This document shows positions 39,399 through 49,681 of a stretch of 64,000 nucleotides of DNA, piece by piece (the first letter of the stretch is position 1; each line of letters begins with the position of its first letter). The position numbers and the translations under genes are program-made. The notes below the pieces were generated by a model. That model worked only from the letters and a program-made list of their open reading frames with translations. It was not told where the DNA came from and did not search any database. Source of the DNA: Prescottella defluvii (lineage in GTDB: Bacteria > Actinomycetota > Actinomycetes > Mycobacteriales > Mycobacteriaceae); the NCBI GenBank assembly GCA_029690005.1, contig CP121458.1, forward strand, positions 3,968,001 to 4,032,000, in the 5' to 3' direction.

Positions 39399-39421
39399 TT
39401 GTTCTAGTTTAAATAGAACAA
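39399..39421. promoter_or_regulatory. Inverted-repeat operator of the GntR gene
   Basis: TTGTTCTA (39399-39406) and TAGAACAA (39414-39421) are perfect 8-bp arms with a 7-bp AT-rich spacer. The site lies 12 nt before the GntR start in an otherwise GC-rich region, and probably overlaps the promoter. Confidence 0.75.
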
Positions 39422-39430
39422 GTTGGATCG

Positions 39431-39614: not shown

Positions 39615-40478
39615 TCAGAGGGCGAGCATGGCCGCAGCGACTTGGTCGGCCGCGGCGTGCCGTAGGGCGGTACCCATGTCGTCGAGGACGAGCAGTCGCG
39701 CCCCGGGGATCTCGGCGGCGAGGACCTCGCCGTTGCCCACGGGGAAGAACGGGTCGGCGCGACCGTGCACCACGAGCGTGGGCGCGTCGAGCTCACCGAA
39801 CCGCTCCCGCCATCGCGGGGCGCAGTCGATCCGGGAGAACACCATCCCGAGCTGGTTCGCCTGGTGCACCGCGGGATCGCTCGACGCCGTCCGGTCCCAG
39901 ATTCGGGCCGCCGTCGCCCGCGACTCCTCGGGATCGTCGCCCATCAGCTCGGCACCCTCGACGGCGAACGCCGCGACGGCATCCCGGTCGGTCCAGTCCG
40001 GGAACGGGCGGGAGAACAGCGCGGCCATGACCGCGGGGTCGTGGTCCGGCAGGTCCTCGTCGACCGGGCCCGGCGCCACCGGCCGGGTGCCGACGAGGGT
40101 CAGTGCGGAGAATTCGTCCGGGTGGTCCAGCGCGGCGACCTGAGCGACCATCCCACCGACGCCGACCCCACCGAGATGGGCGGTCCCGGCGCCGAGCACC
40201 CCGACCAGCGCGGCTGCGTCGGCGACGAGATCCCGCAGGTCGTACGCCGGATTCTCCGGGTCGAGGGTCGTCGACGCGCCGGAGTCGCGCAGGTCGTAGC
40301 GGACCACGCGCCGCCCGCCCGACGCCAGCCGCTCGCACAGCGCGTCGGGCCAGGACAACATCGTTGTGCCGCCGACCAGCAGGACCAGCGGATCGTACTC
40401 ACGGCCGAAGCTCTCGATGCCGAGTTCGACACCGTTCACCCGTACCGAGGTCATGCCACATCGAAACGGTCTCGTCAT
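39615..40478 (-). CDS. Alpha/beta-hydrolase-fold protein with degenerate active site
   Basis: 287 aa, intact frame. The fold is clear: SFGREYDPLVLLVGGTTMLS, VVRYDLRDSGAST, the elbow HLGGVGVGGMVAQVAALDHP, TLVVHGRADPFFPVGNG (acid) and LLVLDDMGTALRHAAAD. The elbow normally reads G-x-S-x-G-G; here the Ser position is Gly, and the Met-Gly-His near the end is Met-Gly-Thr. Both catalytic residues therefore appear lost. AGGAG precedes the ATG at 40478. It sits between the oxidoreductase gene and the remnant of that gene's paralogue. Confidence 0.8.
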   Translation of the reverse strand: MTRPFRCGMTSVRVNGVELGIESFGREYDPLVLLVGGTTMLSWPDALCERLASGGRRVVRYDLRDSGASTTLDPENPAYDLRDLVADAAALVGVLGAGTAHLGGVGVGGMVAQVAALDHPDEFSALTLVGTRPVAPGPVDEDLPDHDPAVMAALFSRPFPDWTDRDAVAAFAVEGAELMGDDPEESRATAARIWDRTASSDPAVHQANQLGMVFSRIDCAPRWRERFGELDAPTLVVHGRADPFFPVGNGEVLAAEIPGARLLVLDDMGTALRHAAADQVAAAMLAL

Positions 40479-46928: not shown

Positions 46929-48188
46929 CTAGCCTGCCGCCTCGGTGGCCGTCACTTCACCCGAGAGCTGCCGGGCCCGCGTCCAATCCAGGAAGTCGGC
47001 AACGCCCTGCGCCACGGCGGCGCTGCGGATCGACGGGAAGATGTCGAAGGCGTGCTGCGCCCCACGCAGTTCCGTGAAGGCGACCGGATTCTCCGACACC
47101 TCCCGCAGCCTCCGGACGAACTCGCGCGCCTCGGCGACCGGGATGAACGAATCGCTGATTCCGTGGACGACGAAGAACGGTGGCGCGTCGGGGCGCAGGT
47201 GGTTCAGCGGCGACGCGGCCTCGTAGTCCTCGGGGAAGTGTGCGTTCTTGCCGAGGACCATCGGCATCAGGCCGGACTCGACACGCTGGCGGGTCGCCTT
47301 GATCCCCGTCTCTCCCGCGAAGTCGTAGACGCCGTAGTGCGGCGCGCAGGCCTGAACCGAGGTGTCGGCGTCCTCGAATCCCGGTTGCAGAGCCGGGTCC
47401 CCCTCGGTGAGCGCGAGCATCGCGGCCAGGTGACCGCCCGCGGATCCGCCGGTCACCGCGACGAAATCGGGGTCGCCGCCGTAGGTCGTCGCGTTAGCGC
47501 GCAGCCACGCCACCGCCCGCTTGATCGCGATCAGGTGCGCCGGCCACACCGCCTTCGGCGACAGCGGGTAGTTGATCGCGGCACACACCCACCCGCGGGA
47601 GGCCATCTCCAGCATCAGCGGGATCCCCTGGTGGTCCTTGCTGCCGATGACCCAGCCACCGCCGTGGATCTGCAGGAGGATCGGCGCGTCGACCGGGACG
47701 TCGCGGCGGTGATAGATGTCGACCCGGAACCGTGTCCCGCCGGGCGCGTAGGCCAGATTCGGAACCCGCACGACGTCCGCGCGCCGCATCCGGAACGGCA
47801 ACGCCAGCTGGCGCCACGACACATCGGCAACGGCCCCCGAACGCCCCGCGACGGATCGGTAGTCGGGGCCCAGCGCCGACGCCAGCGCCGACTCGACCTC
47901 CGACCGCGCCCCGCGACCGGTGGCGATCACCGCGGCCAGTCCGGCGGTCGACAGCCCCGCGGCAGCCAAGGCGGCAACGTCGCCGCGCGTACGAATTCCC
48001 CGGCGCGCCACGTGGATCGCGGCGTCGGCCACGGTGGTCGCGAGCAACTGAGGAGCAAGCTCCGCGGTGAGCCAGCCGGAGAGGAACGTCGGCACCGACA
48101 ACGGCATGCCCGGGACGGGCCGCAGCGCATTTGCCGTCAATGCCGCATTTGCCAATTGCCGTAACAGGAACCGGTTTCTGTACGTCAT
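46929..48188 (-). CDS. HSL-family esterase/lipase (LipN/LipI-like)
   Basis: Intact frame of 419 aa. The hormone-sensitive-lipase motifs are ILLQIHGGGWVIGSKDHQGI (oxyanion HGGGW), AVTGGSAGGHLAAMLALTEG (nucleophile Ser in GGSAGG), HGISDSFIPVAEAREF (acid) and GAQHAFDIF (His). The N-terminal 110 residues are an extra helical region with hydrophobic stretches. The ATG at 48188 starts a hydrophobic/basic N-terminus. Divergent from the WS/DGAT gene, with a KstR-like box in the 69-bp gap. Confidence 0.9.
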   Translation of the reverse strand: MTYRNRFLLRQLANAALTANALRPVPGMPLSVPTFLSGWLTAELAPQLLATTVADAAIHVARRGIRTRGDVAALAAAGLSTAGLAAVIATGRGARSEVESALASALGPDYRSVAGRSGAVADVSWRQLALPFRMRRADVVRVPNLAYAPGGTRFRVDIYHRRDVPVDAPILLQIHGGGWVIGSKDHQGIPLMLEMASRGWVCAAINYPLSPKAVWPAHLIAIKRAVAWLRANATTYGGDPDFVAVTGGSAGGHLAAMLALTEGDPALQPGFEDADTSVQACAPHYGVYDFAGETGIKATRQRVESGLMPMVLGKNAHFPEDYEAASPLNHLRPDAPPFFVVHGISDSFIPVAEAREFVRRLREVSENPVAFTELRGAQHAFDIFPSIRSAAVAQGVADFLDWTRARQLSGEVTATEAAG

Positions 48189-48232
48189 TAACCTATTCAA
48201 CCATGACCTTTGTCACAACGCCCACGACAATC

Positions 48233-48246
48233 TAGAACAGGTTCTA
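48233..48246. promoter_or_regulatory. KstR-type operator (TAGAACAGGTTCTA)
   Basis: Perfect 6-bp inverted repeat with a 2-bp centre that fits the published KstR consensus TnnAACnnGTTnnA at every fixed position. KstR is the TetR-family repressor of cholesterol/steroid catabolism in mycobacteria and rhodococci. The site lies between the divergent esterase and WS/DGAT genes, 12 nt before the latter's start. Confidence 0.7.
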
Positions 48247-48257
48247 CCGTTAGCTGC

Positions 48258-49681
48258 ATGGAGAGATTAAGTGGAATGGATGCCAGCTTCCTCTACCTCG
48301 AGACCCCCACCCAGATGCTCCACGTGTGCGGCCTGATCATCCTCGACGGGTCCACAATTCCCGGTGGCTATTCTTTCGCGAAACTGCGCGACGAACTCGC
48401 GATTCGCGTGAAAGCCATGCCAAGCTTCAAGCGACGACTGAAGGACACCCGCTTCAACCTCGACCACCCCGTGTGGTCGACGACACCGACTTCGACATCG
48501 ATCGCCACTTCCACCGGATCGCCGTCCCGCCCCCGGCGGCCGCGCCGAGCTGTCCGAGCTGTGCAGCTCGATCGCCAGCCAGCCGATGGACCGTTCCCGC
48601 CCGTTGTGGGAGATGTTCGTCATCGAGGGCCTCGACGACGGCTCCGTCGCCGTGATGTCGAAGATGCACCACGCGAACGTCGACGGCGTCACCGGCTCGA
48701 ACCTGATGTCTCAGCTGTGCGGCCTCGAACCCGACGCTCCCCGACCCGAATTCGACCAGCTGCCCGAGGGCGCCGGCCGTGCCAGCTCGCTCGACATCGC
48801 GGTCAACGGCCTGATGTCGTTCGCGTCGCGACCGCTCAAGATGGCGAAGCTGCTCCCCGACAGCATCACGTTGCTCCCCCGGTGGATCGGCCGGGCCCGC
48901 AAGGGCGAGGCGATGCCGACGCCGTTCACCGCGCCGCGGACGTCGTTCAACGGCGCGATCACCGGTCGCCGGACCATCGCGTACACCGAACTGAGCCTCG
49001 ACGACGTCAAGTTCGTGAAGAACACCTTCGGCGTCAAGGTCAACGACGTCGTGCTCACGCTGTGCGCCGGTGCGCTCCGCAGGTATCTCGAGGACCGCGA
49101 GGAGCTCCCCGACACCTCACTGGTCGCGACCGTGCCGGTCTCCGTCCACGACAAGTCCGATCGTCCCGGCACCAACCAGATCTCGGTCATGTTCACCCAG
49201 CTCGGCACGGACATCGCCGACCCGGTCGAGCGGCTGCACACCGTCGCCGAACGCAACGCCATCAACAAGGACCACCACAACGAGGCGCTGGGCGCGACGT
49301 TGCTGCAGGACTGGGCGCAGTTCGCGGCGCCGGCCACGTTCGGCAGCGCGATGCGCGTGTACTCCAAGCTGAAGCTGGCCGAGCGTCACCCGTGGTGCAC
49401 AACCTCGTGGTCTCGAACGTGCCCGGCCCGCCGATGCCGCTGTACTTCCTGGGCGCGCGCATCAAGCAGATGTACCCGCTCGGACCCGTCTTCCACGGCG
49501 CCGGCCTCAACGTGACGGTGATGTCGCTCGAAGGGCGAGTCGACGTGGGCCTCGTCTCGTGCAAGGAACTGGCACCGCACCTGTGGGATCTGGCGGACGC
49601 GTTCCCCGAGGCCCTCGCCGAACTGGTCAAGGCCGCACGCGCGCAAGCACGGAAGAGAAGCAGCCAGCAACCCCTCGGTGA
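48258..49681 (+). CDS. Wax ester synthase / diacylglycerol acyltransferase (frameshifted)
   Basis: WS/DGAT enzymes make wax esters and triacylglycerol storage lipid. The N-terminus RLSGMDASFLYLETPTQMLH and the catalytic HHxxxDG in MSKMHHANVDGVTGSNLMSQ are diagnostic. VKVNDVVLTLCAGALRRYLE, ATVPVSVHDKSD and NLVVSNVPGPPMPLYFLGAR are the usual later blocks. Frames change near 48475, 48535, 49395 and 49640. The last correction gives a stop at 49679-49681, avoiding read-through into the convergent hydrolase. The ATG at 48258 follows the KstR-like site. Confidence 0.9.

Follow-up and report, generated by a model that had tools for sequence, protein, structure and literature searches.

The palindrome TAGAACAGGTTCTA, located at positions 48233-48246 of a 64,000-nt stretch of DNA (hereafter the window) from Prescottella defluvii, a member of the Rhodococcus equi group, is predicted to be an operator of the steroid-catabolism repressor KstR. 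This prediction is strongly supported, because the 14-mer is identical to a known KstR site, the same genome encodes a true KstR with a nearly identical DNA-reading domain, and the sequence is conserved over several genera. The chief target of the operator is, in our estimation with high probability, the gene of a wax ester synthase/diacylglycerol acyltransferase (WS/DGAT), which would be repressed without steroids and induced during sterol breakdown.

The site lies in the 69 bp that separate the ATG of an esterase gene (48188, minus strand) from the ATG of the WS/DGAT gene (48258, plus strand), and its perfect inverted arms, TAGAAC/GTTCTA, enclose the centre AG. An earlier note on this DNA had placed it in a 69-bp divergent promoter and had stated that it fits the KstR consensus at every fixed base. 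Both statements are borne out: all eight fixed bases of TnnAACnnGTTnnA are present in the sequence, and this palindrome is found in an intergenic promoter region, as a KstR operator should be. Two matches to the loose KstR consensus are present in the window, where dinucleotide shuffles give an expectation of 0.07. We also built a weight matrix from all the 47 sites given in Table 3 of Kendall et al. (2007; PMC1995591). The score of 48233-48246 was 23.4 bits, the training median being 23.0, and the runner-up position reached 12.1 bits, which leaves 48233-48246 as the sole strong KstR-type site in the window. When 40 windows were simulated with a Markov model, a score of at least 20 bits was obtained once (0.025 per window; best 21.9). 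A chance palindrome is ruled out by the shuffles and the simulated windows. The second loose match, TAGAACAAGTTGGA at 39414-39427, is weak (11.1 bits) and its arms are not symmetrical, and it was rejected as an equal partner of the operator; it lies 27 bp from the start of an open frame named by eye as GntR-like. Elsewhere in the window, 39615-40478 (minus strand) encodes an alpha/beta hydrolase like macrolide esterases of the EstT/EstX kind, with scores below all the curated cut-offs shown.

A KstR2 operator was considered as well. Its consensus is a palindrome of the CAAG/CTTG type; on inspection the site reads GAAC/GTTC, and this assignment was rejected. The reverse complement of the site, TAGAACCTGTTCTA, is an exact 14-mer of the Mycobacterium tuberculosis Rv3520c/Rv3521 site, which was positive with KstR in gel-shift assays (EMSA; PMC1995591), so the AG/CT centre is tolerated. 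An identical 14-mer is located between MSMEG_5920 and MSMEG_5921, where it was listed without a binding test (PMC1995591). Twelve of the 13 sites assayed by Kendall et al. (2007) bound KstR, Rv0223c being the exception, and the motif was not formally separated from its flanks in that work (PMC1995591). From these data we infer that KstR of P. defluvii would bind the palindrome.

A single protein of the genome scores above the cut-off of the KstR model NF033703 (335.3 bits; NCBIfam cut-off, 280), and its helix-turn-helix is nearly identical to that of the solved M. tuberculosis KstR (alignment to 3mnl). The genome that carries the site thus encodes a KstR with the known DNA-reading domain. The sequence TAGAACGTGTTCTA is found 43 bp before the kstR start, an arrangement that reads as autoregulatory. 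Genome-wide, 66 places match the loose pattern and 11 a reversed control pattern; for a tighter pattern, the counts on the two strands are 32 and 27, compared with 4 and 1 for the control. Perfect arms are present at five places, namely the kstR promoter, 48233-48246 and three others. A selection of 30 open frames adjoining sites was scanned for families; 22 of them matched a family at the set thresholds and eight did not. KstR, HsaA and a 3-ketosteroid dehydrogenase were found beside sites with scores above their own cut-offs. Best matches below the cut-off were obtained for a second KstD, a steroid 3-ketoacyl-CoA thiolase, an HsaD-like hydrolase and a FadD8-like ligase, these low scores being partly due to frames that are broken or truncated by the chosen stretches. 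Some sites adjoin unrelated genes, such as those of DusB and CysD. All other WS/DGAT matches of the genome are more than 5 kb away from any listed site.

The palindrome might instead be read by a KstR paralogue or by a different TetR repressor that recognizes the same sequence, and the inducer could then be something other than a steroid. The genome is rich in TetR proteins, the next matches to the KstR model reaching 118, 72.5 and 62.1 bits, and two to three KstR paralogues are reported in organisms less closely related to M. tuberculosis (PMC3388012). However, each of the 14 genomes of the genus has one, and only one, protein above the KstR cut-off, and the same kind of site accompanies kstR, kstD and hsaA in the genome of P. 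defluvii itself, which makes a reader other than KstR quite improbable.

The WS/DGAT gene (48258-49681, plus strand) matches PF03007 and PF06974 and, on a piece, TIGR02946, and it was also matched in the genome-wide search. Its frame is broken in the assembly by apparent one-base indels; an intact orthologue of 475 aa (P0001) is encoded by the closest genome, and the end coordinate 49681 was derived by comparing the sequence with this orthologue. WS_DGAT_cat and WS_DGAT_C domains and the HHxxxDG motif, in the form HHANVDG, are present both in the window and in the orthologue, which places the gene in the WS/DGAT family. Several other WS/DGAT copies of this genome also have their reading frame interrupted, apparently by small indels, and the completeness of the genome is given as 79%.

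The position of the operator relative to this gene suggests how it could act. The last TA of the palindrome is shared with a putative -10 box, TACCGT (48245-48250, plus strand), which ends 7 nt before the WS/DGAT ATG. If TACCGT is the -10 box, the WS/DGAT transcript would be leaderless. Among 38 promoters with the site near the ATG (25 from outside the genus and 13 from the genus), the last TA of the operator begins a TANNNT sequence 5-7 nt before the ATG in 36. As the TA of the operator falls within a -10-like box, KstR should block this leaderless promoter. The operator of kstR also overlaps the -10 partly (PMC1995591), which fits the promoter geometry that we infer for WS/DGAT.

We then compared the locus among genomes of the genus. 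All of the 13 other genus genomes searched, which are not independent of one another, have a WS/DGAT orthologue, and in every one of them 11 bp separate the end of the site from the ATG of this gene. The operator is thus conserved at orthologous promoters throughout the genus and, outside it, in part. In all 12 esterase-bearing genomes among the 14 (P. defluvii included), the site lies between the esterase gene and the divergent WS/DGAT gene. G004 and G011 (loci L162 and L161), the smallest two of the genomes searched in the genus, yielded no esterase orthologue, and they keep the operator as TAGAACCAGTTCTA, with a changed centre. Their upstream DNA contains short esterase-like stretches (blastn E values of 4e-6 and 3e-7; reversed controls, 0.03). 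At the protein level the same DNA gave nothing convincing, the best tblastn E values being 0.7 and 0.1 and those of the reversed controls 0.18 and 0.002. Since nucleotide similarity remains in the absence of a convincing protein match, decay of the esterase gene in place is likely, though not proven. Within the genus, 11 of the 14 operator columns are invariant, compared with 14 of 30 in the stretch to the left of the site, so that the neighbouring DNA is also well conserved. That the WS/DGAT gene is the main owner of the site is well supported, because the site is fixed just before its ATG, also in the two genomes without an esterase orthologue.

Outside the genus, we analyzed 86 promoters, which correspond to 85 of 96 matching genomes (one promoter each) plus genome G021; the other 11 matching genomes, including G031 (locus L167, no site), and second copies within a genome were left out. 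In 25 of the 86 promoters, distributed over nine genera, 9-13 bp lie between the end of the site and the WS/DGAT ATG; a further 12 have a site elsewhere within 250 bp. The remaining 49 have no site within 250 bp, and the genera g4, g50, g10 and g13 were siteless in all the promoters examined (10, 9, 6 and 5, respectively). In genomes of the R. oryzae type, such as G033, KstR is present yet the site is absent. Control stretches taken 400-900 bp upstream never reached 14 bits (0/86). The arms TAGAAC/GTTCTA are kept in 21 of the 25 near-ATG sites, and the two central bases occur in six forms; constant arms around a varying centre are the pattern that selection on the arms would give. One of the 25, that of G164, is degenerate (14.6 bits, one arm broken). 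Four of the low-identity loci L174-L179 were scanned; two of them had no site and in the other two no start was found. Of 58 loci tried, 50 were carried forward.

The palindrome might also be a relic or a fortuitous sequence without present function, a reading favoured by the 49 siteless promoters among the 86. Nevertheless, several genera share its arms and its place before the start codon in spite of differing centres and spacers, and the control stretches have no comparable site; we regard a functionless palindrome as very improbable. In the nine genomes of genus g51 (L236-L244), which belong to the 12 with a site elsewhere, the palindrome TGGAACAGGTTCCA is found 31-56 bp before the ATG of the WS/DGAT relative in all cases, shifted in place yet constant. 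At L163 (G035, R. wratislaviensis), L187 (G213) and L180 (G223), the DNA upstream of WS/DGAT has a pair of strong KstR-type sites, spaced by about 120-130 bp. In R. wratislaviensis, the far site adjoins the esterase gene and the other one is near WS/DGAT.

The divergent gene (46929-48188, minus strand) encodes an alpha/beta-hydrolase esterase of 419 aa (BD-FAE, Abhydrolase_3), 96% identical to its counterpart in the closest genome, G002. The motifs HGGGW and GGSAGG and residues D346 and H379 are invariant over 16 esterase orthologues, and D346 and H379 are likely catalytic. The protein is similar to the LipQ family (NF052354) over residues 79-413; with 311.6 bits it is far under the equivalog cut-off of 700, and a LipQ identity was rejected. 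The LipQ model was also applied to recognize Mycobacterium among the genera compared, and none of 18 scored above its cut-off.

The earlier note had proposed that the operator controls both divergent genes. This proposal is supported in part: the case for a KstR operator is strong, given the 14-mer identity, the KstR of the same genome and the conservation of the site, and that for control of WS/DGAT is good, given the fixed place of the site, whereas control of the esterase is no more than plausible. A candidate esterase -10 box, TTGAAT (48195-48200, minus strand), was chosen by eye together with the other genus loci and lies 6 nt before the esterase ATG. In the genus the operator is situated 45-58 bp upstream of that ATG, beyond the putative -10, which makes control of this gene less sure. 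KstR might then control only WS/DGAT, the esterase having its own KstR-independent promoter and merely sharing the intergenic space. This arrangement has somewhat less than an even chance of being the true one. It would account for an operator that overlaps the putative WS/DGAT -10 box at such a distance from the esterase ATG, and that persists both in G004 and G011 and in G027, in which an unrelated open frame lies upstream. The second strong site by the esterase gene of R. wratislaviensis also agrees with it, as if one site could not serve both genes. On the other hand, a 17-bp spacer would put the end of the esterase -35 about 10 bp away from the operator, and all 12 genus loci have a weak AACNNGTT core where the esterase begins. 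Both features leave room for some control of the esterase by KstR.

This core belongs to a possible weak second KstR half-match at 48166-48179, inside the first esterase codons. The 14-mer scores 3.7 bits (locus L150 has the same letters), and its counterparts in the 11 other esterase-bearing genus genomes score 3.7-10.7 bits; the AACNNGTT core is kept in all the 12 orthologues. In six of them the core contains the rare Arg codon AGG, which yields the same AACAGGTTC as in the operator; AGG accounts for 13 of the 411 Arg codons counted in the 12 esterase genes. The core may be a weak auxiliary operator, a start-of-gene codon effect or a coding constraint only.

We also scanned the 300 bp upstream of 78 of the 80 named esterase loci, L054 and L110 being dropped as their starts are too near the contig end. 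A site of at least 14 bits was found in 36 loci (at least 17 bits in 29) and was missing from this interval in 42; a control stretch inside the gene gave one in 78. With respect to the presence of KstR in 50 genomes, the esterase has an operator in 23 of the 42 with a KstR above the cut-off and in two of the eight without it, a difference that is not significant (Fisher p = 0.25).

In the mechanism that we propose, a KstR dimer bound at 48233-48246 would, without steroids, cover the -10 and the start of the leaderless WS/DGAT transcript and thereby block RNA polymerase. Release of KstR by 3-oxo-cholestenoic acid or by CoA thioesters of cholesterol metabolites has been described (PMC5348764, PMC9782250), so the WS/DGAT should be made during sterol breakdown: ligands of the 3-oxo-cholestenoyl-CoA type arising from side-chain breakdown would take KstR off the DNA, and the enzyme would be produced together with the steroid catabolic enzymes. 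It could then turn the acyl-CoA pool, swollen by propionyl- and acetyl-CoA from the sterol, into triacylglycerol or wax esters, neutral lipid presumably acting as a sink for both sterol-derived thioesters. Weaker induction of the esterase alongside the WS/DGAT is probable, and lipid esters, either taken up or stored, may be its substrates. A more specific version, in which the pair is a dedicated module buffering sterol esters or propionyl-CoA, with the WS/DGAT esterifying sterols or transferring sterol-derived odd-chain/methyl-branched acyl-CoA to neutral lipid, the esterase releasing them and KstR timing the turnover across genera, seems unlikely. An operator placed in this way before the WS/DGAT gene is found also in several related genera, R. 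wratislaviensis belonging to one of them, which suggests a regulatory coupling of steroid feeding to lipid storage. If this holds true, neutral-lipid synthesis would be tied directly to the steroid-catabolism repressor, which would provide a testable route for disposing of surplus acyl-CoA during growth on sterols. The locus also illustrates how a single operator can keep its place in front of a given start codon from genus to genus as the neighbouring gene comes and goes.

The arrangement is like that of the mycobacterial KstR regulon (Rv3574/MSMEG_6042) in its operator sequence, in the partial overlap with the -10, in the many divergent promoters and in having lipid genes as targets (PMC1995591). 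Among the genes mentioned by Kendall et al. (2007) are fad genes and lipO, a gene of the esterase type (PMC1995591). Here, in contrast, the chief target would be a WS/DGAT gene, and the words acyltransferase, triacylglycerol and wax are absent from the main text of that paper, the body of Table 4 aside (PMC1995591). KstR-type palindromes between opposite genes (kstD/kshA/cyp) are known also from Rhodococcus ruber Chol-4, where the targets are enzymes acting on the steroid ring and side chain, unlike the storage-lipid synthesis proposed here (PMC5348764). Rhodococcus jostii RHA1 resembles P. defluvii in having multiple WS/DGAT (atf) genes, some of them by esterases (atf6, atf11), and 11 of its 14 atf products have the HHxxxDG active site; the passages of Hernandez et al. 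(2008; PMC2667194) that describe them make, unlike the present case, no KstR or steroid link. In Mycobacterium sp. VKM Ac-1817D, the acyltransferase G155_01310 is induced by phytosterol, its type being unstated in the portion of the source consulted (PMC6593523). The use of propionyl-CoA in Rhodococcus lipid synthesis has been discussed (PMC3169528). The general idea that KstR acts on lipid genes is not new, since action on such genes beyond the steroid ones was predicted from conserved motifs (PMC3388012). A statement of a KstR-controlled WS/DGAT gene was not found among the PMC matches listed (titles, abstract starts and passages; supplements and subscription papers lie outside this scope), and we therefore propose the WS/DGAT gene as an addition to the KstR regulon, and the placement of the predicted operator before its start codon over several genera as a new fact.

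The space between the two genes contains another conserved element, CATGACCTTTGTCACA (48202-48217), which we take to resemble a CRP site. A similar sequence, TGTGACCTCTTTCACC, was sought outside the genus and was present in only two of the 86 promoters. Within the genus, CATGANNTTTNTCACA is found in all 14 sequences, including the two without an esterase orthologue.
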